A DNA stretch of 44,950 nt, taken from assembly GCA_018607135.1 (NCBI GenBank), contig JABBCA010000080.1:1-44950 (forward strand), given 5' to 3'. A program made the translations under genes and the position numbers. The first letter of the stretch is position 1. The number at the start of each line of letters is the position of its first letter. Under the pieces are notes generated by a model. That model was not told the origin of the DNA and searched no databases. It saw only the letters and a list, made by a program, of their open reading frames with translations. Shown here in pieces: positions 6,953 through 38,964 of the stretch. This DNA is from Opitutales bacterium (GTDB lineage Bacteria > Verrucomicrobiota > Verrucomicrobiia > Opitutales > Coraliomargaritaceae).

Positions 6953-8410
6953 ATGAAAGCTCGTTTACTTGCAGTCGTATGTATTTTAGGAGGTCTTTTT
7001 GTGGCGGTCGTCTGCGCGCAAAAGAAGGAAGTTAATTTGGACTTGGATTCAAGACCGATGGATCGTGAGAATCCAAAGTATTTGACGAGCTATGCGCCTG
7101 TTTTGAAGGATGCAAAAGATGCGGTGGTTGCGGTGCATTCGGCGCGTATCTTGAAGGTCTATCGTTCTCGTGGGATGGACCCTCGAGAGCAGCTACTGCG
7201 TCGCTATTTTGGTATGCCAGTGCCAGAGCAACAAGCGCCCGAGGTCGAGGAGCGTCGTGCGCCGCAGGGAGTGGGTTCGGGCGTAGTGATTTCGGCGGAC
7301 GGCTATATCGTGACGAACAATCATGTGATTTCGACGGAGGCGGGAACGCCTGCCGATGAGATTTTGGTCGAACTGACAGATGGCCGCGAGTTGGAGGCGA
7401 AGCTTGTGGGCCGTGATCCACGTAGCGATTTGGCGGTGTTGAAGGTGGATGCGGAGGATCTGACGTATCTGCCGATTGCAGACAGTGACCATTTGGAAGT
7501 GGGCGATATTGTTTTTGCGATTGGGAATCCGATGGGTATTGGGTTGACCATTACGCAGGGGATTGTGTCGGCTACGGGGCGAAGCAATTTGGCGATTCTT
7601 GGTGAGTCTGGCTATGAGAGTTTTATTCAGACAGATGCACCGATCAATCCGGGGAATTCGGGTGGGGCATTGATTGATGCGTATGGCCGCTTGGTGGGTA
7701 TCAACACCGCGATCTTGTCGCGTAGTGGTGGAAGCATTGGGTTGGGTTTTGCGATTCCTTCGACCTTTGCGCGCAAGGTGATGCTGGCCTTGATCAATGA
7801 AGGTGAAATGCGCCGTGGTGTGATTGGCGTGAGTGTGGATGATATCAATGCAGACTATGCGGAAGCCTTCGAATTGCCTGCGATCTCAGGGGCATTAATA
7901 CAATCGGTAGTCGATGGGTTACCAGCCGCACGAGCTGGCTTAAGGCAGGGTGATGTGGTGGTCTCAGTAGATGGTCGAGCGATTGTAGATGCAGCCGCTC
8001 TGCGTATTAAGCTGGGCGAGTATGCTCCAGGCACTGAGCTACAAATTGAATTTTATCGTGAGGGCCAGTTGGAGTCCTTGAATGTGCGCTTGAGCGACCC
8101 AGAGGATCCTTATGAATTGGATGCGACCATCGGTGAAATCTTAGAAGGCGTGCAGGGAGTGATTTTGAGTGACCTGTGGCGTCGAGAATTTGGCATCGAA
8201 CGTGACGTGGACGGTATTTTGGTGCTTTCAGTCGCAAATGATTCGCCGTTTGTGGATGCGTTGCCTCGTGGAAGTGTAATTTTAGAAATCAATGGTCAAG
8301 TCTCAGAGACGATTGAGGAGGCTGAAAGCTTATTAGATACGCAAAAAGTGAGTCGCTTATACCTCTATTTCAACGGTCGACGGGGTTATCTGACGATTCG
8401 TAGTGATTAG
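6953..8410 (+). CDS. Periplasmic HtrA/Deg-type serine protease with PDZ domains
   Basis: A 485-residue secreted protease of the DegP/DegQ/DegS family, which degrades or refolds damaged envelope proteins. It has a signal peptide (residues 1-22, cut after VCA) and a trypsin-like domain at about 50-285. The catalytic triad is visible: H124 in VTNNHVIS, D159 in RSDLAVLKV, and S236 in INPGNSGGAL. A PDZ domain follows at about 290-375, and a second, more divergent one at about 395-480 (ILVLSVANDSPFVDALPRGS). Length fits DegP/DegQ. The gene stands alone after a 330-base gap. Which Deg subtype it is cannot be told from sequence. Confidence 0.93.
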   Translation: MKARLLAVVCILGGLFVAVVCAQKKEVNLDLDSRPMDRENPKYLTSYAPVLKDAKDAVVAVHSARILKVYRSRGMDPREQLLRRYFGMPVPEQQAPEVEERRAPQGVGSGVVISADGYIVTNNHVISTEAGTPADEILVELTDGRELEAKLVGRDPRSDLAVLKVDAEDLTYLPIADSDHLEVGDIVFAIGNPMGIGLTITQGIVSATGRSNLAILGESGYESFIQTDAPINPGNSGGALIDAYGRLVGINTAILSRSGGSIGLGFAIPSTFARKVMLALINEGEMRRGVIGVSVDDINADYAEAFELPAISGALIQSVVDGLPAARAGLRQGDVVVSVDGRAIVDAAALRIKLGEYAPGTELQIEFYREGQLESLNVRLSDPEDPYELDATIGEILEGVQGVILSDLWRREFGIERDVDGILVLSVANDSPFVDALPRGSVILEINGQVSETIEEAESLLDTQKVSRLYLYFNGRRGYLTIRSD

Positions 8411-8470: not shown

Positions 8471-8986
8471 ATGCAGCAGCACAGAGCACTCATACTTCGC
8501 GGTAACCGTTTTTTAGGTTCCTCCCTTGTCGATAAGGGGCTTCTTACTATGAACGACCTTGAGTCGGCCAATGAGAAGTTCATGGGGGCGATTCAACAGG
8601 GCGATATGAAGCACGCGTCGATACTGACTTCGCTGATTTATGACTTGAAAGTCCTCGATGAGAACAAGCTGATCGACTACATCGTTGAAGAGTATGAACT
8701 AGGCTTGATTGATTTAAGTTTCATCGAGTTGAAGAGCTTACGCCCGATGGAGGTGAATATCGATTTGTGTTGGGCGACCTCGACTGTGCCCTTTGATAAA
8801 ATTGAGGACACCTACATGATGGCGACCTGTTACTACATGAGTGCGCCTGTCATTAAATATTGGGAAGAGGCTTTGGACGGAAAGGTCATCTGGTATGCAA
8901 CCAGTTGCCAGTCCTTTACCCGGGCCTTGGAAAAAATTACTGACATCCACGACGCAGAAGATGCTGCAGAGGAAGACGAGGATTAA
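8471..8986 (+). CDS. Free-standing MshEN-like (GspE N-terminal) domain protein
   Basis: A 171-residue soluble protein with no signal peptide. Its first half carries FLGSSLVDKGLLTMNDLESA (about residues 14-33), which follows the LGxxLVxxGLLxxxxLxxA pattern of MshEN/T2SSE_N domains at the start of PilB/GspE ATPases. Its second half keeps the rest of that fold: ELGLIDLSFIEL, a DKIEDTYMMAT strand where PilB has its LxVAxxDP strand, and a closing TSCQSFTRALEKI helix. The tail is acidic. In MshE this domain binds cyclic di-GMP (family knowledge). Here the motif is partly kept, with the R displaced. It is the first gene of an operon with two response regulators and pilB, so a role in regulating the pilus ATPase is likely (inference). 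Confidence 0.65.
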   Translation: MQQHRALILRGNRFLGSSLVDKGLLTMNDLESANEKFMGAIQQGDMKHASILTSLIYDLKVLDENKLIDYIVEEYELGLIDLSFIELKSLRPMEVNIDLCWATSTVPFDKIEDTYMMATCYYMSAPVIKYWEEALDGKVIWYATSCQSFTRALEKITDIHDAEDAAEEDED

Positions 8987-9003: not shown

Positions 9004-10305
9004 ATGGCTTACAGTGTTTTAATACTAGATGACGACTCAGACTTCAACAGTCTGCTGACTGATATCTTTGAGCAGGCGGACTATACGGTCACACCCATGG
9101 AGGATCCAGTGGAGGCTGTGGTCGTCTTTCGTGACAACCATTTCGACCTAGTGGTGACCGATCATAAAATGCCTCGCATGAGCGGTGCGGAATATATGAA
9201 AGTCATTAAGCAGATCAAACCCGAGGTTCCAGTCATAATGGTTTCCGGGTATCTCGAGAATGATACGATTCGCGAACTGATTAGCGATGGGGTCGGCGGT
9301 GTGTTTTTAAAGCCCTTGAATATCTTCTCGCTACTGGAGCGAACTGCTGAACTCATTGTCGAGGCAAAGAAATATCAAGACAATGGAGGTGAGCGAGCTT
9401 TGCTCAATGCGGGTGCCAAGCAGTCCACACTAAAGTTTCCTTTTCGTTCATTTCCATGTAAGGCCTCTGCCTCGATACGATTTGCAGAGCGTTTATATGC
9501 ACTGCGTAATTTTAAGTCGACACTGTCGCTCGTTGGGCCAAACGGTGCGAATTATCGAGCGATCTGTGATGACATACGCAGCTTTGATGCATCCTCAACA
9601 GAGAGCTTTATTTATCTCAGCCCAGAAAGCTTTGATGAGAGTCATGCAATCTCAGCAATCTTAAATGCTCAAAAGGCCAATGCGGATCAGGTAACCTGTG
9701 TTGTCTTGGGAGTGGAGAGTCTGTCTCTATCCCAGAAAAAACTAGCCGCACAATTGGCAAGATGTGAGGGTGTATTTGACAATGGTGACCTCGTATTGCG
9801 CACGATTTTTTGCGTGAGTGGCGACTTAGACGAGCTATTCGATGAGGGGCGCATTGATGAGAGCTTATACATTTTGATGGGAACTGCTGAGATTAAGGTG
9901 CCCAGTTTGAATGAGTGTAGTCATGATGTGCCAGTGTTGGCACAACAGCTTTTACTCAGTATATCAGCTGAACAGGGCCGCGAAGTGGTCCCCGAGCTGA
10001 GTCAGTCGGCGGCGGAAATGTTGCTCTCATATGATTTGGAACGTGACTACGATCAATTGCATTCCGCAATCCAGAGTATCGTCGTTGCGGGCGCCAAGGC
10101 TGAGTTGAGTGCTGATGTATTGAGAGGCGCGCTAGAGAATGCATGCTCAATGTCCCCGCATGCGGCTCTCGTTGCGTTTTTAGAGGCCCAGCGAGTGGAT
10201 TACGCCAAGGCGGTGTATGCCTTAAATCAAGGGGATCTAGCCAAAACTGCAGACTTTTTGCGAGCCGATACGAAGACTCTGGAGGAGATCGTGAAACAAG
10301 CCTAG
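9004..10305 (+). CDS. Response regulator with degenerate NtrC-type AAA+ and Fis-like output region
   Basis: A 433-residue protein. Residues 1-120 form a complete receiver domain: acidic pair D10/D11, phospho-acceptor D53 in VVTDHKMPRMSG, S81, and K103 in FLKPLN. Residues about 150-330 align by pattern with the sigma-54 activator AAA+ domain, but the Walker A glycines/lysine and the GAFTGA loop are absent. What remains is a block at about 279-319 (FDEGRIDESLYILMG, then VPSLNE and DVPVLAQQLL) resembling the sensor region FRxDLYYRL...PPLRER.EDI. The last 30 residues (VYALNQGDLAKTADFLRAD) resemble a Fis-type helix-turn-helix. ATP hydrolysis and sigma-54 activation are not expected. It starts 18 bases after the previous gene. 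Confidence 0.8.
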   Translation: MAYSVLILDDDSDFNSLLTDIFEQADYTVTPMEDPVEAVVVFRDNHFDLVVTDHKMPRMSGAEYMKVIKQIKPEVPVIMVSGYLENDTIRELISDGVGGVFLKPLNIFSLLERTAELIVEAKKYQDNGGERALLNAGAKQSTLKFPFRSFPCKASASIRFAERLYALRNFKSTLSLVGPNGANYRAICDDIRSFDASSTESFIYLSPESFDESHAISAILNAQKANADQVTCVVLGVESLSLSQKKLAAQLARCEGVFDNGDLVLRTIFCVSGDLDELFDEGRIDESLYILMGTAEIKVPSLNECSHDVPVLAQQLLLSISAEQGREVVPELSQSAAEMLLSYDLERDYDQLHSAIQSIVVAGAKAELSADVLRGALENACSMSPHAALVAFLEAQRVDYAKAVYALNQGDLAKTADFLRADTKTLEEIVKQA

Positions 10306-10331
10306 TGCTTCTAGATTAATGTATTTCAATT

Positions 10332-11618
10332 ATGGCTGGTAGAATTTTAGTTTTAGACGACGAGGAGAATTATGCAGAAATGCTGCAAGAGCTTCTTAAA
10401 GAGCACAACTACCGTGTGGACATGGCGACTCGCCCTGAGCGCGCGATCGATCTGTTAGAAGAAATTCCATACGACCTCGTCATCTCAGACTATAAGATGC
10501 CAGTCATGGACGGGGCGGACTTTTTGAAACGTTCTCGAGAGTTGTATCCTAACCTGCCGTTTATTTTAGTCTCTGGACTGATGAACACCCCCGAGTTAGT
10601 CAAAGTCGCAAACATGAGTGTGACTTTGGTGATGGAGAAGCCATTAAATACGGCTTATTTTCTAGAGCAAGTAGAGCGTTTTTCTGAGCCAATGAGCGAT
10701 GACGAGAAATCTTCTTCTGAAGAGGATGCAGAGGAAACGGATACGGAGCATTTACACCTTCCTGACGAGCCACGCTTTATTTCTGCCAAGTCTTTAACCT
10801 CTGTGAAATTCACCAAGGATCTATGGTCCCTAGCGCAAAAGAAGGATCATTGTTTTATTTGGGAACCCAACGGTGGAGAAGCTGAGCTTGCTTTGAAGGA
10901 TTTGTCGGCATGGCTTGGCAATGAAGACAAACCACTTCTTACCTATCAGTTCTCTAGTCTAGCCGACGGTGGAGTGATCAAAATTCAAGAGTTGTCTGAG
11001 GATCTTGAAAACAGCCATGTGGTGCTGTTACGTTTAAACAATGCTTCAGACATACCTGCTGCCAAAGAATTTGCGTGTTTGGTCGCAGAGGAGGCTTCGG
11101 ATCTTTTCTTGGCGTTTGTTCTTTCTTCAACGGAAATGCCAACCGATTTTTTAATTGCTTCAGATCGTCATGGATTGGTTCTGCCCGCATTGAATCTGCG
11201 GCCTAGTGACGTTGGGCATTATGCACTGCGGTTTTTACGTATCGCGACCGAACGCTTGAATGAATCAAAGGCTATGGAATTGTCGCAAGATGCGATTTAC
11301 GCATTGCTTGCCAAGAATTGGTCCAGCTGCCGTGAAATTCAAGATGTGATGACCGCTTTGGTCAATGAAAGTTCTGGTTCAGTGCTTACTGGCGAGCATG
11401 TCGCTAGGCACCTGCCATCTGTGGGAGTCGTTGATCCTGCTAAGCAACTCGGATCCTTGCTGACTCATTCTCAAGCAGAGTATTTGAGAACTGAATACGC
11501 AATGTCTGGACTGTCGGCCGAAGATTTTGCTCACCTGTATGACTTAGATGGTTCGATTCAGTCGCTAGATGATTTGATGGCTATGCCACTCGTTGATGCC
11601 AATATGGCCAAATTTTAA
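10332..11618 (+). CDS. Second response regulator with degenerate NtrC-type output region
   Basis: A 428-residue paralogue-like neighbour of the gene before it. The receiver is intact (D10/E11, D53 in VISDYKMPVMDG, S82-region SGLMN, K104-region MEKPLN). An acidic linker (about residues 120-148) follows. The rest keeps traces of an NtrC AAA+ domain without Walker A or GAFTGA: LPALNLRPSDVGHYALRFL (about 283-301) for the PxLRxRxxDI block, and LLAKNWSSCREIQDVMTAL (about 326-344) for the WPGNVREL block. The end (LSAEDFAHLYDL) may be a weak helix-turn-helix. It probably signals by protein contact, perhaps to PilB encoded 38 bases downstream (inference). Confidence 0.8.
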   Translation: MAGRILVLDDEENYAEMLQELLKEHNYRVDMATRPERAIDLLEEIPYDLVISDYKMPVMDGADFLKRSRELYPNLPFILVSGLMNTPELVKVANMSVTLVMEKPLNTAYFLEQVERFSEPMSDDEKSSSEEDAEETDTEHLHLPDEPRFISAKSLTSVKFTKDLWSLAQKKDHCFIWEPNGGEAELALKDLSAWLGNEDKPLLTYQFSSLADGGVIKIQELSEDLENSHVVLLRLNNASDIPAAKEFACLVAEEASDLFLAFVLSSTEMPTDFLIASDRHGLVLPALNLRPSDVGHYALRFLRIATERLNESKAMELSQDAIYALLAKNWSSCREIQDVMTALVNESSGSVLTGEHVARHLPSVGVVDPAKQLGSLLTHSQAEYLRTEYAMSGLSAEDFAHLYDLDGSIQSLDDLMAMPLVDANMAKF

Positions 11619-11656: not shown

Positions 11657-13435
11657 ATGGCTTTAGCTAGAATACAAACTTCGATCGTGAAAAACCTGCT
11701 CGATATGGGGCACCTTTCCGATGAGCAGTTTAAAGTGATTACTAGCACTGATGAAGACATGTCGGGGCAGGCCGTGGAGTCATTGCTCGCCGATAGCTAT
11801 AAAATTACTCAATTTCAGTTGTTAGTGGCTAAGGGGAGGGCCTTTGATTTATCGCCGATCAATATTCGCAGCTGCATGGTCAACGAGATGACCTACGCGA
11901 AGTTGGAAAAAGATTTTTGCATCGAGAATAAGGTCTTACCACTCGGGTTTTGTGGAGATTTTTTGATTGTCGCAGTAAGCAATCCGTTTGACCTACGGGT
12001 GACTACTAAAATCCAAGAGATCTCAGGGATGCGCGTCTCTGTCCTCCTTGGTTTGGAGCAGCAAATCGATAAGGTGCTAGACAGTCAGGTAGACAAATAT
12101 CAGTCCGAAGGCTTCGGGGATGTTGTCGAAGCTCTTGGCGAAGAATATGAGGATACGGATGACTTAGAGGATGAATTTGGAGACGAGGAATCTGCGCCGA
12201 TCATTAAGTTGGCAAACCGTATCGTTGAAGAGGCTTACTATGCTGGTGGAAGTGATATCCACATTGAACCTTTTGAAAAAGAAACACGTGTGCGTGTGCG
12301 TGTGGACGGCATTCTCGCGAATACTTTATCGATACCTCCTGCAGCTTCGAATGCCTTGCTAGCACGCCTCAAAGTGATGGCTCAATTGGACATTGCGGAA
12401 AGACGGTTGCCCCAGGACGGGAGAATTGTTTACAAGCAGTTTAATAAAAAAGGCATTGATGTTGATTTACGTGTTTCTTCTGCGCCATTGAATCATGGCG
12501 AAGGCATGGTGATGCGTATCTTGGACAAGCAAAAGAGCACCTTGCCGCTTCCAGCACTGGGTTTTTCGGATCGTAATTTGGGTCTGTATCGAGATCTGAT
12601 TCAGCGTCCATACGGAATGATTTTACATTGTGGGCCGACGGGTTCGGGTAAGTCCATGACCTTGTATTCTGCATTGAACGAAATCAATACGCCTGACCTT
12701 TGTATTCGCACCGCGGAAGATCCGATCGAGTATACTTTACCTGGATTATTGCAAATGCAGATGCAGCGTAAAATTGGGCTTACTTTCGCTAATGCGCTTC
12801 GATCGTTCCTGCGTCAGGACCCCGATGTAATTCTGGTTGGGGAAATTCGGGATAAGGAAACTGCTGGCATTGCTGTCGAAGCCGCGCTCACTGGGCACTT
12901 GTTATTCAGCACCTTGCACACCAATGACGCACCAACAACGATCTCTCGGTTGACTGAGATGGGAATTGAGCCGTTTATGATTTCAGCATCTTTGATCTGT
13001 GTTTGCGCTCAGCGCTTGATGCGCCGTGTTTGTAAATCTTGTGGCTCTGCGTATCGACCAGAAGGAAATGAGGCACAAATTATCAACAAGGCATTGACTT
13101 GGACTGGTAAAATTCAACAGGCCAACATGGATGGTTGTCCGAGCTGTGGGGGTAAGGGTTACAAGGGGCGAATCGGCATCCATGAACTCATGGCAACCAG
13201 CGAGGAGCTGATCAAGGCAATCAACGCGGGTGAAGAGGCTGCCGTGCTCAAGCGCATCGCGATGCGCAATGGTATGATGACTTTGCACCAAGACAGTATG
13301 CTTAAAGTTAAAGAGGGACTCACTACGATGGCTGAATCGATTGCGACGGTTCCACCCGATATGGAACAATATGAGGTCGACCACAATGTTCTGGTGCCCA
13401 AGAAGAAAAAAATTAAGCCAGTGCCTGAGTCTTAA
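11657..13435 (+). CDS. pilB: Type IV pilus / type II secretion assembly ATPase (PilB/GspE)
   Basis: A 592-residue hexameric motor ATPase driving pilus or pseudopilus polymerisation at the inner membrane. An N-terminal MshEN-like region (about residues 1-150) is followed by an acidic linker and the secretion ATPase core. The core has Walker A GPTGSGKS (326-333), the Asp box RTAEDPIEY, Walker [15 protein letters not shown] and the His box [13 protein letters not shown]. The zinc-binding cysteines C459/C462 and C494/C497 form the expected two CxxC pairs. It is the last gene of the MshEN-regulator-regulator operon. Its stop overlaps the convergent cutA stop by 4 bases. PilB and GspE cannot be separated here because no other pilus or secretion gene is in the window. 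Confidence 0.95.
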
Positions 13436-17362: not shown

Positions 17363-18286
17363 ATGCAGCAAACTATATCGAAAGCCAACCCTTCTGTTAA
17401 TCCAGTCTCGTCCGCAGTTGACGTTGCCGTGTATGGTGAAGTGCTTTACGATTGTTTCCCAGATGGCCGCCGTGTGCTTGGAGGCGCCCCGTTCAATGTA
17501 GCTTGGGGGCTCAAAGGTTTTGGGCATGATCCGCTATTTATGAGTGCTGTGGGGGACGATCCGGGCGGTCACAATATACGTGAAAAAATGTCGACGTGGG
17601 GTCTGTCGACTGATGGTCTGCAAACTCATGCCGACTACGCGACAGGCGAAGTGCAGGTAACGATTGAGAATGATGAGCCGTCGTATGAGATTTGCGAGCC
17701 GCGTGCCTGGGATTTCATTGATGACTCCGACGTGAGTGCAAGTAAGTTGATCTATCATGGATTGCTGGCTTTGCGTAATCCACACTCTAGAGCTTCGTTT
17801 CAGGCGTTGATGCGAAACTCTTCTGCAATGCGCTTCTTTGATGTGAATTTAAGGCCACCCTATTATGAATTGGGCTCGTTGCGCGCACAGATTGAAGGTG
17901 CGGACTGGCTTAAATTAAATATCGATGAGCTAGAGATTGTGCTCGGTGAGTCCTCTATCATTTTTGATAGGAGCGAAGCGTCTGTGGAGCGGTTGATCGC
18001 GCAGTTTGGTGTGAAAAATGTGCTACTGACTGGCGGTAGTCAGGGTGCGTTCATTTACGGCGAATACGGTAAGGCAATGTGCACACCTGCGCCGGTTCCA
18101 GATCCTTTGGTGGATACAGTTGGGGCGGGTGATTCTTTCTCGGCATTTACCATACATGGAATCGTATCACAGCTACCGGTCGAAGCCATTGTCCAGAATG
18201 CCAGCCATTTTGCCGCTAAAGTCTGCGGAATGCAGGGCGCGACGACTACGGACAAAACATTTTATTCTACTAGCAACAAGTCATGA
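17363..18286 (+). CDS. Fructokinase (PfkB family)
   Basis: A 307-residue sugar kinase of the PfkB/ribokinase family. The N-terminal signature is GGAPFNVAWGLKGFG (about residues 39-53) and the C-terminal ATP/catalytic signature is DTVGAGDSFSA (residues 251-261), with D257 as the catalytic base. FDVNLRPPYY is typical of fructokinases. It is expected to phosphorylate fructose released from sucrose by amylosucrase, encoded two genes on, which fits the cluster. The stop overlaps the next start by 4 bases (ATGA), so the two are translationally coupled. The substrate is inferred from family and context. Confidence 0.9.
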   Translation: MQQTISKANPSVNPVSSAVDVAVYGEVLYDCFPDGRRVLGGAPFNVAWGLKGFGHDPLFMSAVGDDPGGHNIREKMSTWGLSTDGLQTHADYATGEVQVTIENDEPSYEICEPRAWDFIDDSDVSASKLIYHGLLALRNPHSRASFQALMRNSSAMRFFDVNLRPPYYELGSLRAQIEGADWLKLNIDELEIVLGESSIIFDRSEASVERLIAQFGVKNVLLTGGSQGAFIYGEYGKAMCTPAPVPDPLVDTVGAGDSFSAFTIHGIVSQLPVEAIVQNASHFAAKVCGMQGATTTDKTFYSTSNKS

Positions 18287-20490
18287 CAAAAAATAAAGGA
18301 AAACGTATCGCACTGGTCAGTCTTCATGGGCTTATCCGGGGAGAGGACTTAGAGCTTGGTCGTGACGAAGATACTGGTGGTCAAATCCGCTATGTGCTCG
18401 AGCTCGCGCGTGCGCTTGCCGAGAGTCCAGAAGTGGAACGAGTTGATTTAATCACTCGTCAAGTCGTGGATGATCGTGTCTCTGATGATTACGCGAAGCT
18501 TGAAGAGCAGATTGCAGATAAAGCTTACATCGTGCGAATCCCGTTTGGGCCGAAGCGTTATTTGACGAAGTCTAAGCTGTGGCCATACATGGAGATGTTT
18601 GTGGATCAGTGCCTCAACCACTTTCAGCGTACACACACTGCTCCCGACGTGATACATGGGCACTATGCAGATGCGGGCTATGGAGGCGGTCAGCTAGCGC
18701 GTTTGATCGGAGTGCCTTTCATCTTTACTGGACACTCGCTTGGGCGCGTGAAAAAAGAGCGCCTGTTGGAATCTGGGGTCAGCCCTGAGAAGATCGAGGC
18801 GCGCTATGCCATTTCGAGTCGTATTGAGGCGGAGGAGTTTGCCTTGGAAACTTGCCAACTGATTTGCACCAGCACGCATCAAGAGGTTCGTGAGCAATAT
18901 GAGTGTTATGAACACTATGTGCCGCAACGTATGGAAGTGATTCCGCCAGGGGTGGATTTGAGTTCTTTCCATCCGCCTCGTGAAGATGAGCCCGAATTTC
19001 AATTAAAGAAGGATATCGACGCCTTCTTACATGATGCTTCAAAGCCAATGATTGTGGCGATGGCGCGGCCTGATGAACGTAAAAACTTGGAGATGCTCGT
19101 GAAAGTATTCGGTGAGTCTCCTGCGTTACAACGAGAGGCGAATTTAGTGCTGATCATGGGGAGTCGCGACGATGTTCGCCAGATGCCACATGGTCAAAAA
19201 ATGGTGCTCAACAATGTGCTCCAGCTGATTGATGTCTATAACCTGTATGGTAAGATCGCGTATCCGAAGCAGCATAAGTCGGGTGACGTGCCAGCACTGT
19301 ATCGAGCGATTACGCAGTCACGCGGTGTCTTTATTAACGCCGCAATGACGGAGCCGTTCGGACTGACATTGCTTGAGGCGGCAGCAAGTGGTGCCCCAAT
19401 CGTGGCAACGAATGATGGTGGGCCGAGTGATATTATTGCCAATTGCAAGAACGGTCAGCTCGTAGATCCGTTCGACCCGAAGGCAATAGAGCAGTCTCTG
19501 ATGCATGCCTTACTTGAGCACGATCAATGGAATGAATGGTCCAAAAATGGTCTTGAGAATGTAAACAAACACTACTCATGGAAACGTCATGTGATGCGCT
19601 ACTTGCGCGATGTGAACGAGGTGCTTGAAGAAACTTACCATTCGCCCGATATTGCACGCGGACGTAAAACGCGCCGCTTACCGCAGATTGATCGATTGAT
19701 CATCGCGGACATTGATAACACGCTCACGGGTGACGATAAAGCGATGCAGGATTTCTTCAAACTCATGAGTGAGGCGGAGGATAATATCGGATTCGGAATT
19801 GCTACCGGGCGACGCTATGAAGAAGTCATTGCGTTGATGGATGAGTATGAGATTCCGCAACCAGAAGTGTTGATCACTTCGGTAGGCACCGAAATCTATT
19901 ACGGGAAGAATTACACTTTAGATAAAAGTTGGCAAAAACACATCGATTTCCGCTGGGAGCCAGATCGTATCCGTGAAGTGTTGCTCGGGATTGAAGGGCT
20001 GCACCTACAAGAGGATCGAGAGCAGTCTAAATACAAAATTAGTTTTGGAATTGATCCAACAGTCGCACCGAAGGTGGGAGTTATTAAGCGAATTATGCGT
20101 GAGCATGGCTTGCGCGCGAAGGTGGTCTTCTCGCTAGGGATGTTCCTCGATGTGATCCCATTTCGTGCAGGTAGTGGTATCAGTATTCGCCACATGGCGT
20201 TCAAGTGGGGCTTTCCTCTGGAGAATATTTTGATTGCTGGGGATTCGGGTAATGACGAAGAGATGCTTGCCGGGAATACTTTGGCTGTAGTGGTGGGTAA
20301 TTACAGTTCAGAGCTGGAAAAGCTACGAAAGTATCCACGTGTTTATTTCGCAGATGCGCATCATGCTGCAGGTATCATTGAGGGAGTCGGATATTACAAT
20401 TTCCTCGATACGATTACCATTCCGAATGATAAGTCTGTAGAAATAGAGTCCGAATCTGAATTTGAAAACGAAGCCGACGCTGATGCCTGA
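18283..20490 (+). CDS. sps: Sucrose-phosphate synthase with C-terminal HAD phosphatase domain
   Basis: A 735-residue two-domain enzyme making sucrose-6-phosphate from UDP- or ADP-glucose and fructose-6-phosphate. The GT4 part (about 1-460) has the N-terminal [23 protein letters not shown] segment common to sucrose synthases and [21 protein letters not shown], and the donor-binding EPFGLTLLE (E357 to E365). The HAD part (about 470-720) has DIDNT (D476, D478) and GDSGND (654-658), so its catalytic aspartates are kept and it may also remove the phosphate. A separate phosphatase gene lies at the other end of the cluster. The tail is acidic and low-complexity. It overlaps both neighbours. Confidence 0.93.
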
Positions 20491-22441
20491 TATTGACCTC
20501 GAATACGAAGCTCAACGTTCGCTGAATCGCATCAGGCCTAAGATCCTCTCTAAGGTCGATGGGGCGGTAGCATCTCCATCCGAGCGTGCCCAGCTAATCG
20601 AGACGATGGATGGAAGACTTGCCGAACATTGGCCGCGTTTGTTCCTTTTACTGTATCGTCTCTACGGTGACCACTACGACTTCTTTTTCTACTTGGAAAG
20701 TATTCTTTTGACGGCAGTCGACTGTTGGCTGAGTCGCCCCGAGGAATTACAGCAACTCGATATTCGCCGCGAAAATGATCCAGGCTGGTATCTGTCAGAA
20801 CGCATGGTGGGCGGTTCGCTTTACGTGGATTTGTTTAGCGATGACCTCAATCAGTTGCGTGACAAGATTGCTTACTTTAAAGGTTTAGGACTCACATACG
20901 TGCATTTGATGCCATTGTTTAAAGACCGAGAAGGGCAGAGCGATGGAGGCTACGCGATTACCGATTACCGTGCGGTGGATCCGAATCTCGGCACCATGGA
21001 AGATCTGCGTTCGCTGGCAACGGATTTTCGTAAAGTCGGCATCTCACTCGTGATTGATTTCGTGTTTAATCACACTTCAGACGACCATGATTGGGCGATA
21101 CGTGCGCAGGAGGGTTCACGTGAACATCAAAATTATTATCATATGTATTCAGACCGCACGACTCCGGATCACTATGAACAAAATTTGCGTGAGATTTTTC
21201 CAACAATACGGCGCGGGAACTTTACCTGGCATGAGGGATTACAGCAATGGGTGTGGACCACGTTTAACAGCTTTCAATGGGACTTAAAGTATTCCAATCC
21301 AGAGGTCTTCCGTGCGATGGCGGGCGAGATGCTCTTTCTCGCCAACACGGGAGTGGAAATTTTACGCCTCGATGCAGTGGCCTTTATTTGGAAGCAGATG
21401 GGCACGATGTGCGAAAATTTGCCTGAAGCGCATTTGTTGATTCAAGCATTCAATGCGGTCTGTCGTATCGCAGCGCCTGGTTTGGTATTTAAATCAGAAG
21501 CTATTGTGCACCCTGATGAGGTGGAGAAATACATCGACCGCGATGAGTGTCAGATCTCCTATAACCCGACAATGATGTCGCTGATGTGGGAAAGTATCGC
21601 GACACGTGAGACGAAGCTCTTAAAGCAGTCGCTGAGTCATCGTCACACCTTGCCATACGGCACCTCTTGGGTGAATTATTTGCGCGGGCATGACGATATC
21701 GGCTGGTCGTTTGATAACGAAGATGCTTGGGCAGTTGGGATTAATCCGGATGATCATCGCAACTTCTTGAATTCATTTTATGCAGGTGGTTTTCCAGGCA
21801 CTTTTGCATCGGGTGTGCCTTTCCAGCATAATGAGGATACGGGGGACATGCGCGTGTCAGGGACTATGGCGTCGCTTGCAGGTCTTGAGCAAGCATCGTT
21901 AAGCAAGGACTCTGTGCTTATTGAGATGGCGGTGCGGCGCATATTTATGATGTATGGTGTGCTTTCGAGTATCGGAGGGATTCCATTGATTTTTCTCGGG
22001 GAGGAGTGGGGCTTACTGAATGACTACAGTTATCTCGAAGATCCAGATAAAGCTATAGATAGTCGTTGGGTGCACCGGCCTCGGATGGATTGGTCGATTC
22101 TTAAGGAATTGAAAAAGGAAAAATCAGTAAAGAAGCGTCTTTTTCAGTCGATGCAGCAGCTGTTTGAGGCGCGCAAACAGATTCCAGCTTTGAGTGGTAA
22201 TAGCATGCGGCTACTACAAGTCGAGCATCCGCATGTGCTGGCTTACCTGCGCTGGCATGATGCGAATACATTGACGGTGATCGCTAATTTTTCAGAGCAT
22301 CTGCAAACGGTGGATGTCAGACAGCTACGCACTGAGGGTTTGTCGCATTTCTTGAAAGACGTTTTAACAGATAAGGAAGTTTCTACACACGACTACCTCA
22401 CTTTAGAGCCCTACGAAGTGCTGTGGTTAAAGGAAGATTAA
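20483..22441 (+). CDS. ams: Amylosucrase (GH13 subfamily 4)
   Basis: A 652-residue GH13 enzyme that splits sucrose and transfers glucose to alpha-1,4-glucan, releasing fructose. The amylosucrase pattern is clear: N-terminal helical domain, [29 protein letters not shown], nucleophile D297 in LRLDAVAF, acid/base E339 in FKSEAIVHP, and D404 in RGHDDIGW. Length matches known amylosucrases (about 640). A TTG start at 20462 is possible, but ATG 20483 is preferred; it overlaps the SPS stop by 8 bases. The end overlaps the convergent gene at 22438 by 4 bases. Sucrose phosphorylase is less likely, given the length and the HDDIGW motif. Confidence 0.93.
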
Positions 22442-34212: not shown

Positions 34213-37200
34213 ATGTCTTCCCCTGCAAAGTCTTTTCCCCTTCTCGCCCTCAGTGCTGCGCTGGTCTCTGGTTGTTTACAGGCTCGCTCGGTTTCGGTCG
34301 ATGTTCCCGTGTCGCTCAATACAGATGCTGCGGCGCTCTGGCTTGCGCTGGATGCGGGGCCCAGCTTTGGCTCCTCAATTGTCACCATCGAGGATTCCGG
34401 CCGTGTCTTTCTGCCGTTTCAAGCAGATGTGATTCTTGAGATCGCCGAGGGCAAGGTGGCGTCGGTGCGTCAGTATGCGAACTATCAATGGCAAGCGATT
34501 GAGCCAGATGGTTTCAGTGTCGCGATGACGGGTAATAAGACTCAGGTTAGTCTGCCACTCAATGCATCGATTGATCGTGTCCGCGCGGTGCAATGGTTTG
34601 AAGAGGGCAGCGCTGGGCAGCTCGCACCCGATCATGCTTATGCACAGCACACTGGCAATGAAGTGTATTTACCACGCTACTACGAAGTTTCTGCTGCAGG
34701 ACAGCTTGCCGTGAAAGGTCGATTCGGTGCGGTGCATACCAAACCTCGCATCTATCAATTGTTGCCTCGCCTGTTTGGTAATGAAAACGAAACGCGCAAA
34801 GTGAACGGCACGCTGATTGAAAATGGCTCGGGTAAATTCAGCGATCTTTCAGCATCGGTTTTATCAGGCCTCCAGGCTGATGGCTACTCACACGTTTGGC
34901 TGACGGGTGTGATTCAACAAGCCACTTCCACTGATTACAGTGAGGCGGGGCAAGCCGCGGATGATCCAGACTTACTTAAGGGCATTGCGGGTAGCCCGTA
35001 TGCAATCCGAGATTACTTTGATGTCTCTCCCGATTATGCTGACAATCCCGCGGAACGCCTTGAGGAATTTAAAGCACTGACTGAACGCATGAAGGCAGCT
35101 GGTTTGAAAGTGTTGATCGACTTTGTTCCCAATCATGTTGCGCGTAGCTATGGTTCCGATATACGACCCGAGCTCGCATTTGGTGTGAAGGATCGCAAAG
35201 ACGTGTATTTTGACCCTGATAATAATTTCTTTTATCTCACTCCAGAGATCACTGATGGCGAGGCCCCCTTGCGCCTGCCCACGGTCGACCGAAAGACAGG
35301 GCAGATCATCAATGAAACCGCCCGTCTGGTCGGCAATGCCGATGGTTTCTTCCCGCCCGAGCGGGTGCATGGCCGAGTGACCGGTAACAATGTCGCAAGC
35401 TGGTATCCTTCGAATGGCGATTGGTATGAAACCGTGAAGATCAACTATGGATTCGACTTTTTGAACCGCGATCGTCCGCCCGAGTATCCGAGTGCGATCA
35501 CTCCGCGTAAGCGCATCCCTGATACATGGAAAAAGATGGATTCCATTATCGAGTATTGGCAAGGACTCGGTGTAGACGGCTTTCGCGTGGATATGGCGCA
35601 CATGGTGCCACCAGAGTTTTGGAAGTGGATGATCCACCGTGCCCGTGAACGTAATTCAGAGACTTTTTTCTGCGCTGAAGCCTACAATGACGATCCAGCC
35701 AAAGTGCCGAGCCGTGATCCCGCGCTGCGCGAAGAGGACAGTGTGATGCTTGCTTTGCTCGATGCTGGCTTCAATGCCGTGTATGATGATCCTGGATACG
35801 ATACATTGGAGCATGTGTATCACGGTAAAGCGTGGGTGAATGACCTTGAAGAAGTGCAAGAAAGCTTAGGTGCGTTCTTCTTTGATTGCGCGTTGCGCTA
35901 CACTGAGAATCACGACGAAATACGCCTCGCTCACCCGAGCACATGGGGTGGGCAAGGGATGGAAGTCGGGCGCCCGGTGACCGCCACCTTGTTTGGTCTC
36001 TCTCGTGGCGCAGTGATGGTGTATCACGGTCAAAAAGTCGGCGAGCCTGGTCTCGGTCGCGAGGGTTTCGGTGGCGATGATCAGCGCTCCTCCATTTTTG
36101 ATTATTGGTCACTTCCTGAGTTGAATAAGTGGTGGAACAACGGCGTGGCCGATGGCGCACAACTCTCTGCGGAGCAACGCGAGCTGCGTGCCTGGTATTT
36201 GCGTTTGTTGGATGTCTTGCAAGAGCCTGCGTTTACAGTCGGTAACTCCGTGCAGCTGAACCTCGCCAACCGCGACAATCCATTCTATGGCAAGGTCGAA
36301 GATGTGGGCCCGTCCGGACATTGGTTTTATAGTTATGTGCGTTCCGATCCTGAGAGTGGTTCGCGTTTTTTAGTGACCTCTAACTTCCATGCAAACGCGA
36401 CCTTGCGCCATGTGCGTGTGCGTTTACCAGACTCAGCGTTGAACGCTCTACAGTTTGGTGAGGCCGATGGCACTTGGCTGGTTTTGAAGGATCGTTTGGC
36501 GCCCGATTCAGCAGTTCGTGCACTGCCGCTCGCCGATGCACTGCGTGAAGGAATCTATCTCGATTCACTGGCTCCGTTGTCGGCTGCTTATTGGGAGCTC
36601 AGTCTTGCCAATGCTGCACCTGTGGGCGCTCTCGTGCCTACGAGTTTACCAGCAGGTGAGGCTTTCTTGGGCGCACCTCCAGTCTCTAGAATTCGAGCCG
36701 GTGAGTGGATGCAACTTGATTTGCGCCGCTTCGGGAATCCTGGCGCTACGCACCGCTTTGCGGTGGAGGCGGTCGATGGTCTGCAGGCTGAGGTCGATTC
36801 TTTGAATCATCGCTTGGTCGTTGAAGCTGATGCATCGGCATCAGGCTTGAAAGTCTTGCCCCTTTTGTTGCTCCCTACGGATGAGAGCAGCACGCTTTTA
36901 AAAAGTAGTTTACCGATCGTGGTGGAAGGTGTTTCGACGCATACGTTTACTTTAGAAGGCTATGCAGATGCGGAATCCGTTGCCGTGGTCGGCGGGTTCA
37001 ATCAGTGGAATACCAGTGCTTCGCCGATGCAAAAAATCGAAGGTGGCTGGCAGTGGACAGGATCTTTGAACCCTGGAACGTATGCTTACAAGTTTGCAAT
37101 CGACGGTCGTTGGGAAAGTGATCCTGACAACGATCAGCAAGAGCCCGACGGGCATGGTGGGTTTAATAGTGTGTTGGACTTTAAGGGCACGGGGCAATCC

Positions 37201-38964
37201 GGTGACCCTGTGACCTTGATTGTAGAAGCGGTGACGGACGCCAGTGTGACCGTGCGAGCTAGTGGTGCCTTAGGGCAGGTCGTCGCCGAGGCGTTGCCAA
37301 AGAAAGGCGGAGTGGTGTCCCTACCTGTGCAGATCGAAGACCAGACGATCACGGTGACACATCGCAAGCTTGCGCCTAAGGGATCTATGATTCGTGTGCT
37401 TGCTGAAAGTGAGGGCGGTAAAGTTGGGCTTCCTGCGATTGCCTTTGCGGGTGATCCGAGTGAGGACATCTGGCAGGACGACATTATTTATTATGCATTC
37501 ACCGATCGTTTCCATGATGGCGATCCGAGTAACACCAAAGCAGTGGCTAATGATCAGGTGTTCGCTCCAGCGAATTATCAGGGTGGGGATTTTGAAGGCA
37601 TTCGCCAGAAGTTGGCGGAAGGGTATTTTGAGGATCTGGGTGTGAATGTATTGTGGCTCGCGCCGCTCAATCAAAATCCAGAAGGCGCGTGGCAAGAGTA
37701 TCTGGAGCCGTATCGTCACTACACGGGTTACCATGGTTATTGGCCGATTTCGCGTTATGCAGTGGAGCCTCGTTTTGGAGGTGACGATGCGTTGCGCACA
37801 CTCATCGGTAGTGCGCAGGACAAGGATATGAAGGTGCTTGCCGACTTTGTCTTGAAGCATGTTCATCAAGAGAATCCGATTCGCGAAGAGCGTCCAGAAT
37901 TGTTTGGAGAGCTGGAGCTGAGTGATGGCACGCGCAACTTGCGCCGCTGGAATGATAATCCATATACCACTTGGTTTGAACCGTTCTTGCCGGCCTTTGA
38001 TTTTCGCAATCCCGATGCGGTTTCGTTCTTATTGGAAGATGCGACCTATTGGATCGATACCTATGGTTTGGATGGCTATCGCCTCGATGCGGTGAAGCAC
38101 ATTCGTCCTGACTTCTGGTGGCGTTTTCGCACTCGTATGCGCGACACCTTCCCCGATGCGAATCACTACTTCGTGGGGGAGACTTTTCAAAGCCGAGAGG
38201 GAATCACTGACTTTGTCGGGCCGAACATGCTCGACGGTCAGTTTGACTTTCCACTCTACGACACCTTGGTGCCGTGTTTCGCGCAAGCCACTGCGAGTTT
38301 CGCCGATCTAGAAAGTGCGCTGCGTCAATCGGAAGAAGTGTATGGGCGCAGTGTGCGTATGTCGGCTCTGCTCGGCAATCACGATAAGTCGCGCTTTATG
38401 GCCTATGCCGATGGCGATCTGCCAGATGCGACTGAGCCGGACGACGAAGAAGTGGGGTGGGCAAAACGTCTGACGGTGGATACTGCATCCAACTATCGAA
38501 AACTAAAGCAAGCGATGACCTTCCTATTGACGATTGATGGCGTGCCGATGATTTATTACGGCGATGAAATCGGCATGACGGGCGCGGGCGATCCAGATAA
38601 TCGCCGTAGGATGCGTTTCGATGAGGATGTGACTCAAGCCGAAGTGTCGGTGCGCGAGCATTTCTCAAACTTGGCCAAGGCGCGCCGTGCGCACCCAGCC
38701 TTGTATCTTGGTAGTCGTCGGGTGTTGGTCGCGAATCAAGATCAATATGCCTACGTCCGTGCGTATGCGAGCGACAAGGCAGTGGTGGCATTTAATCGAT
38801 CGAGCAAGCCAACCACACTCGTGTTGGAAGTCGGCACTGAAATGGAAACCGAAATTTTAACGGACGTGCTGAGTGGGCATTCGCTTAAGGTGGTCAATGG
38901 TCGTGCGGTGACTCGCTTGGAGCCGATGTCGTCGGTGGTCTTTGTGAATGGAGGTCGTGACTAG
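34213..38964 (+). CDS. Lipoprotein with two complete GH13 alpha-amylase domains and a CBM48-like module
   Basis: A 1583-residue exported protein. The start MSSPAKSFPLLALSAALVSG leads to a lipobox Cys (C21, VSGC), so it is probably lipid-anchored. Residues about 20-170 are beta-rich. GH13 domain 1 spans about 178-740 with nucleophile D460 (FRVDMAH), acid/base E489 (FFCAEAYND) and D568 (TENHDE). A CBM48/AMPK-type glycogen-binding module follows at about 913-985 (VAVVGGFNQWN, YAYKFAIDGRWESD). GH13 domain 2 spans about 1090-1580 with D1292 (YRLDAVKH), E1323 (YFVGETFQS) and D1391 (LGNHDKSR). All six catalytic residues are kept, so both domains may be active on alpha-glucans. Its stop overlaps the next gene by 1 base. 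Confidence 0.92.
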   Translation: MSSPAKSFPLLALSAALVSGCLQARSVSVDVPVSLNTDAAALWLALDAGPSFGSSIVTIEDSGRVFLPFQADVILEIAEGKVASVRQYANYQWQAIEPDGFSVAMTGNKTQVSLPLNASIDRVRAVQWFEEGSAGQLAPDHAYAQHTGNEVYLPRYYEVSAAGQLAVKGRFGAVHTKPRIYQLLPRLFGNENETRKVNGTLIENGSGKFSDLSASVLSGLQADGYSHVWLTGVIQQATSTDYSEAGQAADDPDLLKGIAGSPYAIRDYFDVSPDYADNPAERLEEFKALTERMKAAGLKVLIDFVPNHVARSYGSDIRPELAFGVKDRKDVYFDPDNNFFYLTPEITDGEAPLRLPTVDRKTGQIINETARLVGNADGFFPPERVHGRVTGNNVASWYPSNGDWYETVKINYGFDFLNRDRPPEYPSAITPRKRIPDTWKKMDSIIEYWQGLGVDGFRVDMAHMVPPEFWKWMIHRARERNSETFFCAEAYNDDPAKVPSRDPALREEDSVMLALLDAGFNAVYDDPGYDTLEHVYHGKAWVNDLEEVQESLGAFFFDCALRYTENHDEIRLAHPSTWGGQGMEVGRPVTATLFGLSRGAVMVYHGQKVGEPGLGREGFGGDDQRSSIFDYWSLPELNKWWNNGVADGAQLSAEQRELRAWYLRLLDVLQEPAFTVGNSVQLNLANRDNPFYGKVEDVGPSGHWFYSYVRSDPESGSRFLVTSNFHANATLRHVRVRLPDSALNALQFGEADGTWLVLKDRLAPDSAVRALPLADALREGIYLDSLAPLSAAYWELSLANAAPVGALVPTSLPAGEAFLGAPPVSRIRAGEWMQLDLRRFGNPGATHRFAVEAVDGLQAEVDSLNHRLVVEADASASGLKVLPLLLLPTDESSTLLKSSLPIVVEGVSTHTFTLEGYADAESVAVVGGFNQWNTSASPMQKIEGGWQWTGSLNPGTYAYKFAIDGRWESDPDNDQQEPDGHGGFNSVLDFKGTGQSGDPVTLIVEAVTDASVTVRASGALGQVVAEALPKKGGVVSLPVQIEDQTITVTHRKLAPKGSMIRVLAESEGGKVGLPAIAFAGDPSEDIWQDDIIYYAFTDRFHDGDPSNTKAVANDQVFAPANYQGGDFEGIRQKLAEGYFEDLGVNVLWLAPLNQNPEGAWQEYLEPYRHYTGYHGYWPISRYAVEPRFGGDDALRTLIGSAQDKDMKVLADFVLKHVHQENPIREERPELFGELELSDGTRNLRRWNDNPYTTWFEPFLPAFDFRNPDAVSFLLEDATYWIDTYGLDGYRLDAVKHIRPDFWWRFRTRMRDTFPDANHYFVGETFQSREGITDFVGPNMLDGQFDFPLYDTLVPCFAQATASFADLESALRQSEEVYGRSVRMSALLGNHDKSRFMAYADGDLPDATEPDDEEVGWAKRLTVDTASNYRKLKQAMTFLLTIDGVPMIYYGDEIGMTGAGDPDNRRRMRFDEDVTQAEVSVREHFSNLAKARRAHPALYLGSRRVLVANQDQYAYVRAYASDKAVVAFNRSSKPTTLVLEVGTEMETEILTDVLSGHSLKVVNGRAVTRLEPMSSVVFVNGGRD

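Follow-up and report, generated by a model that had tools for sequence, protein, structure and literature searches.

Two tandem response regulators with pseudo-AAA+ domains of NtrC type encoded upstream of pilB in Opitutales

What can a response regulator still do when the output domain behind its receiver has lost the residues for ATP use and sigma-54 contact? This question is raised by two adjacent genes on contig JABBCA010000080.1 of an Opitutales bacterium (assembly GCA_018607135.1), the whole 44,950 nt of which are called the window here. The genes, RR1 and RR2, lie in tandem directly upstream of a gene for a PilB/GspE-family ATPase. A preliminary description, made from the DNA letters, had read both products as complete receivers followed by the remains of a sigma-54 activator, and had proposed that they no longer activate transcription and have become phosphorylation-controlled adaptors, possibly of PilB. 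From the analysis presented here we conclude with high confidence that RR1 and RR2 are response regulators under selection which are neither ATPases nor sigma-54 activators. For the further reading, that they are phosphorylation-controlled pseudo-ATPase regulators acting at the protein level with PilB or the product of the neighbouring ORF171 as partner, we see an even chance.

Residue counts given here and below refer to 26 RR1 and 24 RR2 orthologues scored by alignment column; motif patterns were counted in 30 RR1 and 25 RR2 distinct rows. The features of the pair are the following.

9004-10305, forward strand: RR1, 433 amino acids, with a receiver (residues about 1-120), an NtrC-like pseudo-AAA+ domain (about 150-385) and a degenerate Fis-like tail (about 386-433)
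9160-9162, forward strand: codon 53 of RR1, the phospho-acceptor Asp (D in 25 of 26 orthologues, E in one)
9535-9558, forward strand: Walker A remnant GPNGANYR of RR1, residues 178-185, with Tyr at the Lys position
9853-9882, forward strand: IDESLYILMG of RR1, residues 284-293, which the alignment puts opposite FREDLYYRL, the arginine-finger segment of intact NtrC
10332-11618, forward strand: RR2, 428 amino acids, with a receiver (about 1-120), an NtrC-like pseudo-AAA+ domain (about 150-362) and a C-terminal tail
10488-10490, forward strand: codon 53 of RR2, the phospho-acceptor Asp (D in 24 of 24 orthologues)
11316-11342, forward strand: NWSSCREIQ of RR2, residues 329-337, the sensor II segment

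Descent of both proteins from NtrC-type activators is supported by profile comparisons and by predicted structures. Aligned with hhalign against intact NtrC proteins of related genomes, RR1 reached 99.1% over 216 columns and RR2 98.6% over 209, and both alignments are colinear between the Walker A region and the lid. Twenty column shuffles each gave at most 0.9% (RR1) and 0.3% (RR2) and reversed profiles 0.1%, which rules out chance or artefact as the source of the likeness. The Pfam family Sigma54_activ_2 was matched by the window RR1 (27.7 bits, cut-off 25) and by 25 of the 26 RR1 alignment members; the window RR2 had no Sigma54 match of its own in Pfam and showed the lid only, below the cut-off. 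AAA_lid_14 was found at E 0.01 or better in 23/26 RR1 and 24/24 RR2 orthologues, the window proteins scoring 22 and 21 bits (RR1 and RR2, cut-off 27). The profile of the RR2 C-terminal region matched 34 sequences of bacterial enhancer-binding proteins (bEBPs) in the PDB, the best being ZraR (E 8.6e-20), mostly through the lid, with NtrX covered nearly end to end.

The AlphaFold2 models, with a mean predicted local distance difference test (pLDDT) score of 88.8 for RR1 and 84.0 for RR2, also have NtrC-family neighbours. Using VIA-align, residues 3-378 of the RR1 model were superposed on NtrC1 (1ny5) with 351 aligned residues, a Z-score of 23.8 and a root mean square deviation (rmsd) of 16 A. 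Over residues 1-379 the structures of NtrC1, NtrC4 and NtrX had 339-352 aligned residues, again at high rmsd, which we read as a different predicted arrangement of the domains relative to each other; most of the RR1 rows cover the receiver alone. For RR2, essentially only receiver matches were found by VIA-align among the 50 matches listed; its AAA fold therefore rests on the profiles and on Foldseek, in which the first 17 rows are all NtrC-family proteins (NtrX, NtrC1, NtrC4, LuxO, VpsR, FleQ), with TM-scores of just 0.31-0.40 for whole chains and up to 0.60 for single AAA+ domains. The activator layout assigned to the residues behind the receivers in the preliminary description was thus recovered from hhalign, Pfam and the predicted structures, all shuffled profiles remaining below 1%.

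The absence of Walker A and GAFTGA reported earlier was confirmed beyond the window, as GxxGxGK and GAFTGA were found by pattern in 0/30 RR1 and 0/25 RR2 rows. At the position of the Walker A lysine the RR1 orthologues carry Phe (17), Tyr (7), Leu (1) or Ile (1), and the RR2 orthologues Ala (15), Val (3), Phe (3), Gly (2) or Ser (1); lysine is found in 0/26 and 0/24. A loose GAFTGA match, GSYDGS in a later RR2-like frame at locus L161, lies far down the tail, outside the loop. The distance from Walker A to Walker B is 50 residues in the window RR1 compared with 64 in the six intact NtrCs measured, and this shortening by 14 residues fits a deletion of the GAFTGA-bearing L1 loop.

The remaining catalytic positions are affected as well. 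In RR1, arginine occurs in 0/26 at either of the positions that correspond to the finger arginines in FREDLYYRL; for RR2 the finger region was inspected in the hhalign block of the window protein, where FRxDLYYRL was not seen. The Walker B Asp position of RR1 holds Asp in 0/26, the next position carries Glu in 11 orthologues and Asp in eight, and an acidic residue is thus present at the Walker B Glu position in 19/26. The sensor II arginine survives in 1/26 RR1 and 4/24 RR2 orthologues; in the sensor II segment of RR2 the Trp is kept in 24/24 and the Asn in 21/24, most orthologues having a WPGNY-like form. According to passages of PMC7175178, GAFTGA mutants mostly fail to activate transcription, and the nucleotide site is formed between the two AAA+ subdomains. 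Because the Walker A lysine, GAFTGA and the finger arginines of RR1 are lost, ATP-driven activation of sigma-54 by RR1 or RR2 appears very unlikely from their sequences, and ATP use has probably been given up. The proposed loss of transcription activation consequently stands for the sigma-54 route, the motifs being lost in every orthologue scored, and regulation through DNA binding stays a rival, which is weighed below. A general loss of sigma-54 in the lineage was ruled out as the cause: rpoN is present in the genome of the window (and in 52 of 57 genomes in all), and the same genome has two intact NtrC proteins.

The receivers, by comparison, are complete, each with its D53 as had been described. 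Response_reg was matched with 78.8 bits in RR1 and 67.2 bits in RR2 (Pfam cut-off 30.2), and D53, S81 and K103 are present in both window proteins and near-invariant among the orthologues, K103 being kept in 26/26 and 24/24. Since the receiver is under strong constraint, control of RR1 and RR2 by phosphorylation is likely.

How differently receiver and output domain evolve was determined in the genomes from which RR1, RR2 and both intact NtrCs could be recovered, nine of 13 other genomes (G004, G011, G031 and G036 were dropped). Between the genome of the window and the eight genomes of the same family, RR1 is 78-87% identical in the receiver and 47-60% in the AAA region, and RR2 84-90% and 33-47%, respectively, whereas the two intact NtrCs show 81-96% for the receiver and 87-94% for the AAA domain. 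The ninth, more distant genome has the same pattern. Median ratios of nonsynonymous to synonymous substitution rates (dN/dS) were calculated from pairs with dS 0.05-2, 22 to 40 pairs per region, which are not independent of each other. They amount to 0.065 (receiver) and 0.127 (AAA) for RR1 and 0.048 and 0.290 for RR2, compared with 0.045 and 0.046 for the receivers and 0.036 and 0.033 for the AAA domains of the two intact NtrCs. The output domains thus evolve about four times (RR1) and eight times (RR2) as fast as those of working activators and are still under purifying selection, the highest pairwise value in the AAA-like regions being 0.484, clearly below 1. This speaks against plain decay. 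The frames are open in the aligned RR1 and RR2 orthologues, and the invariant residues of RR1 outside the receiver include G181, Y289, G293 and P300. RR1 has in addition conserved blocks of its own, with LxGExGTxFR replacing GESGTGKE and LYILMGTAE behind the old finger; such blocks at the sites of old motifs are as expected for a pocket that was rebuilt and not abandoned.

In a maximum-likelihood tree of 44 proteins (16 RR1, 13 RR2, 10 intact NtrCs, three of a further decayed group called RR3 and two intermediates; midpoint-rooted for drawing only), a well supported branch sets each of these five groups apart from the rest, and RR1 and RR2 are jointly split from all others with 100/100. The simplest reading of the sequences would be an old duplication of one ancestor that was already without the motifs. 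A third protein with a receiver and a decayed AAA+ domain, 371 amino acids long, is encoded in the window's own genome (L082:1300-2415, reverse strand; contig C42, about 89044-89487). It has GPAACGKLQ at the place of Walker A, GAFTGA was not seen by eye, and its clade, shared with proteins of G001 and G010 (L067, L064), is separate from that of RR1 and RR2. More distant receiver plus AAA-like proteins of the order (L158-L160, in G187 and G234) are encoded on fetched stretches from which pilB is absent. As these are also without the Walker A and GAFTGA patterns, regulators of NtrC type may have decayed more than once in the order. A wider spread of the decayed pair through the phylum was considered and rejected: in a sample of 288 genomes, nine from outside the order matched at the threshold of E 1e-35 or better, and the eight proteins fetched (the ninth, G417, was left out) carry Walker A and GAFTGA by pattern and are ordinary NtrCs.

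The next question is whether the surroundings of the pair point to a partner. On the same strand and with short gaps, the window ORFs and Pfam matches give the series HtrA-like protease, ORF171, RR1, RR2 and PilB/GspE-family ATPase. The members besides the pair are as follows.

6953-8410, forward strand: HtrA-like protease (Pfam)
8471-8986, forward strand: ORF171, read as a stand-alone PilB N-terminal (N1/MshEN/GSPII) domain protein without ATPase domain (NCBIfam; profile against the PDB)
11657-13435, forward strand: PilB/GspE-family extension ATPase; it has an MshEN domain and, read by eye, the Walker A motif GPTGSGKS and two CxxC pairs

A full pilus operon, which the preliminary description had suspected as one possible setting, was not found here. 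The unit is flanked by the protease gene and, on the opposite strand, by CutA-like and malate-dehydrogenase-like genes (by eye), and further T2SSE-family and T2SSF-family genes lie at other places in the same genome. A scan of the unit for promoters and terminators gave counts equal to the shuffle level and was uninformative. About 10 kb from pilB, at 198-1844 on the reverse strand of the window, a ComEC-type competence protein is encoded (Competence domain, 167.9 bits), and a link of the pilB unit with DNA uptake is possible. Farther away the window contains an alpha-amylase-family protein at 20462, within a stretch of sugar metabolism (18283-22441) that begins with an ORF at 18283 looking by eye like a sucrose-phosphate synthase, and an alpha-amylase-family protein of 1583 amino acids with an AMPK1_CBM domain at 34213 (stretch 34213-38964).

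A survey of Opitutales for a conserved gene order, as suggested in the preliminary description, revealed that the order recurs. Orthologous loci were found in records named Coraliomargarita, Puniceicoccaceae, Opitutales and Opitutia; one of the 16 loci of the first orthologue set, L036, turned out not to be an orthologue. ORF171, RR1, RR2 and PilB follow each other in this order and on this strand in 14 of the 20 loci fetched, including one with a 224-amino-acid ORF between RR1 and RR2 and one in which the contig ends within PilB. In the remaining six, some of them at contig ends, RR1 is found and ORF171 may or may not accompany it. The protein inserted between RR1 and RR2 in some genomes has 222-224 amino acids (L033:7178-7846; L049:8149-8823, reverse strand), and its L033 copy has no Pfam or NCBIfam match. 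Among 273 genomes of the order, 50 gave a match to the RR2 profile at the threshold of 1e-30 (in one of them, G007, the match is its RR1 at a contig end). An orthologue of this PilB is present in 88; these were picked by hand and comprise long matches down to E 4.9e-218 and three that are cut by contigs (G129, G164, G218). RR2 is present in 43 of the 88 genomes with this pilB and in 7 of the 185 without it, and in 36 of the 43 genomes with both it lies on the same strand less than 1.2 kb upstream of pilB. These co-occurrence counts are descriptive, and a Fisher p-value is no proper test of them, the genomes being related; G003, which has a cut pilB beside RR2, was counted as pilB-negative.

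ORF171 was also found directly before pilB without the response regulators in between, namely in 7 of 20 loci (L094, L099, L100, L102, L105, L111, L112). For this reason ORF171 and PilB look like a wider unit to which the RR pair was added, or from which it was lost elsewhere. At locus L101 of genome G065, which belongs to another family, a protein with receiver, HisKA and HATPase_c domains (L101:7308-8423, reverse strand) is encoded directly upstream of pilB in place of RR1 and RR2, which hints that two-component control has come to this PilB on more than one occasion. PilM was tried as a marker separating genomes with and without the pair and was rejected: it was matched in 48 of 57 genomes, and these include G002, a member of the same genus without an RR2 match.

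The PilB of the window clearly belongs to the T2SSE family (401.9 bits, with MshEN at 42 bits in Pfam). Its NCBIfam scores of 555.6 bits for type_IV_pilB and 525.1 bits for GspE are both below the respective cut-offs of 675.65 (equivalog) and 630.25. ORF171 matched positions 3-149 of NCBIfam type_IV_pilB (E 1.5e-4), and the sequences found with its profile in the PDB were solely N-termini of PilB, PilF and MshE (7/7, E 2e-5 to 0.1). MshEN was matched in Pfam at E 0.1 or better by 6 of 25 ORF171 orthologues, the window copy not being among them. With the N-terminal part of the PilB encoded next to it, ORF171 gave a weak hhalign result (14.8%; maximum of 20 shuffles 0.7%); the likeness rests on PilB and MshE of other species. 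We read ORF171 as a putative PilB N1/MshEN domain without the motor. The cyclic di-GMP motif of MshEN/GSPII domains consists of two copies of (R/K/L)LGxx[LVI][LVI]xxG[LVI][LVI]xxxxL..., as given in passages of PMC11731258. By eye, the first copy in ORF171 is near-consensus (FLGSSLVDKGLLTMNDL, with Phe at position 1) and the second degenerate; the same passages do not count GSPII-A domains, which have one good and one degenerate copy, among those credited with binding (PMC11731258).

From these findings the following mechanism can be proposed. RR1 and RR2 would be paralogous pseudo-bEBPs in which the AAA+ output fold is kept and ATP use and sigma-54 contact have been stripped away. A histidine kinase would phosphorylate D53 of each receiver, and this would alter the packing of receiver and pseudo-AAA+ domain, their pairing or an exposed surface, so that the pseudo-AAA+ domain binds or releases a protein partner. 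The likeliest target would be the extension ATPase PilB, perhaps via or together with ORF171, and extension of a pilus or pseudopilus would come under phosphorylation control without new transcription, whichever the direction of the effect. Gene order and two precedents make PilB the best candidate, whether by itself or together with ORF171. PilZ docks on the N1 domain of PilB (residues 12-163) in Xanthomonas, as stated in passages of PMC11656802, and for Synechocystis binding of PixE to PilB1 is put forward as a hypothesis in parts of a review (PMC7690835), with the interaction named in the title of a paper cited there. A more specific version, in which the pair is a phosphorylation-gated scaffold docking on the hexameric PilB with ORF171 as the coupling piece, and thus a clutch of pilus extension, is offered tentatively, and we doubt it more than we favour it. 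Many RR2 orthologues end in a similar short motif, PLL.P.L or LIYPDL (by eye), which is possibly a docking peptide.

Several observations weigh against PilB or ORF171 as the partner. Of the 88 genomes with the pilB orthologue 45 gave no RR2 match, which speaks against an obligatory tie to pilB; a lasting link is supported, with RR2 just upstream in 36 of 43 genomes. RR2 and pilB are on different contigs in seven genomes (in at least one, G041, near a contig end), RR1 occurs without pilB in the stretch fetched at L051, L054-L056, L058 and L059, and at L162 it adjoins an intact ntrC. At matched identity of the ATPase part, the N1 domain of PilB is barely more conserved in the 25 RR-positive than in the 11 RR-negative sequences: the values are 42.9 against 38.3% and 59.8 against 51.4%, uncorrected for relatedness, without a significance test and with three sequences with unlinked RRs left out. 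The slightly higher conservation is a weak hint of contact. Finally, RR1 has kept a recognisable Fis-like tail.

This tail leads to the first of the alternatives, namely that RR1 and RR2 are DNA-binding regulators of sigma-70 type which need no ATP hydrolysis to control the pilB unit or other genes. We regard this as unlikely, though as a serious contender. The Fis-like end seen earlier in RR1 persists as a weak likeness, as hhalign gave 85.7% against a Fis-like helix-turn-helix (HTH) domain with at most 0.6% in 20 shuffles; the structural neighbours of RR2 include VpsR and FleQ; and passages of PMC10274813 document bEBPs that lack GAFTGA and regulate sigma-70 promoters, in some cases with no hydrolysis of ATP. 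On the other hand, Pfam HTH_8 was not matched in the RR1 tail at E up to 10, and the segment at the old recognition helix has a net charge of 0 or below in 21 of 26 rows, the same segment in the genome's two intact NtrCs reading TRATLRKR and SRRTLHRK (by eye, charge not computed). The RR2 tail reached just 2.5% against the HTH directly and 82.2% against the RR1 tail. Moreover, the Walker A lysine, which is lost in RR1 and RR2, is conserved in Caulobacter NtrC, where it has been studied by mutation according to passages of PMC10274813.

Second, the pair could contact a protein other than PilB, such as another part of a pilus or secretion system, a second-messenger enzyme or an unlinked kinase, with the linkage to pilB reflecting co-expression only. 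The loci in which RR1 or RR2 is apart from pilB would fit, and so would those with ORF171 directly before pilB, in which the closest functional pair may be ORF171 and PilB; set against this, most of the RR2 matches come from genomes with this pilB, where RR2 usually lies directly upstream of it. This reading, too, we would not expect to prevail, although it deserves attention. A role of the receivers alone, as phosphate sinks or timers of another two-component system with the pseudo-AAA+ domain serving dimerisation only, would agree with the receiver being by far the most conserved part and is nevertheless highly improbable, given the considerable constraint on the pseudo-AAA+ core of RR1 and its clade-specific blocks. 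That the genes are pseudogenes or regulators on the way to loss, for which only the fast evolution of the AAA-like regions would speak, is hardly credible and is ruled out as decay by the dN/dS values and by receivers about as conserved as those of intact NtrCs, together with the open frames and the invariant residues of RR1 outside the receiver.

Compared with known systems, RR1 and RR2 share with group 1 bEBPs (NtrC1, NtrC4, NtrX, ZraR) the order of receiver, AAA+ domain and tail, the fold, the lid and the residues of receiver chemistry. They differ in lacking the Walker A lysine and GAFTGA, in the shortened loop stretch, in the mostly lost sensor II arginine, in the degenerate DNA-binding tail and, for RR1, in the missing finger arginines. 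Neither an altered output domain in a response regulator nor a bEBP without GAFTGA is new, and bEBPs that lost the sigma-54 contact and are still transcription factors are known as well: Caulobacter NtrC, Rhodobacter capsulatus NtrC and Vibrio VpsR regulate transcription without GAFTGA, as described in passages of PMC10274813. The pair resembles these three in the lost sigma-54 contact and in the succession of receiver and AAA+ domain, but it has lost the P-loop lysine as well and consists of tandem paralogues beside a pilus ATPase. With the cyanobacterial PATAN-CheY regulators (PixE/PilB1) it would have in common the action of a response regulator on the extension ATPase, which is proposed there in the parts of the review cited above. 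In RR1 and RR2, by contrast, the output is a pseudo-AAA+ domain. PATAN, which we take to be the family filed in Pfam as DUF4388, had no match in either protein at E up to 10. Among the cofactors of PilB, ORF171 resembles the N1 domain that is the binding site of PilZ in Xanthomonas in the PilZ/FimX systems (passages of PMC11656802 and PMC11731258). ORF171 differs from that domain in being free-standing. To our knowledge a free-standing N1-like protein has not been described, although no search was aimed at one. Among the titles and abstract openings listed from the open-licence PMC literature we found no paper on a tandem receiver-pseudo-AAA+ pair without the Walker lysine that is tied to a pilus ATPase, which is weak evidence of absence.

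With the receiver kept, the ATP part lost and the gene of a pilus motor adjoining in many relatives, the pair points to a rebuilding of gene regulators into proteins that control other proteins. If this is true, RR1 and RR2 would clearly exemplify the shift of a family of transcription factors to a probably post-translational role, and they would explain how this PilB comes under two-component control.

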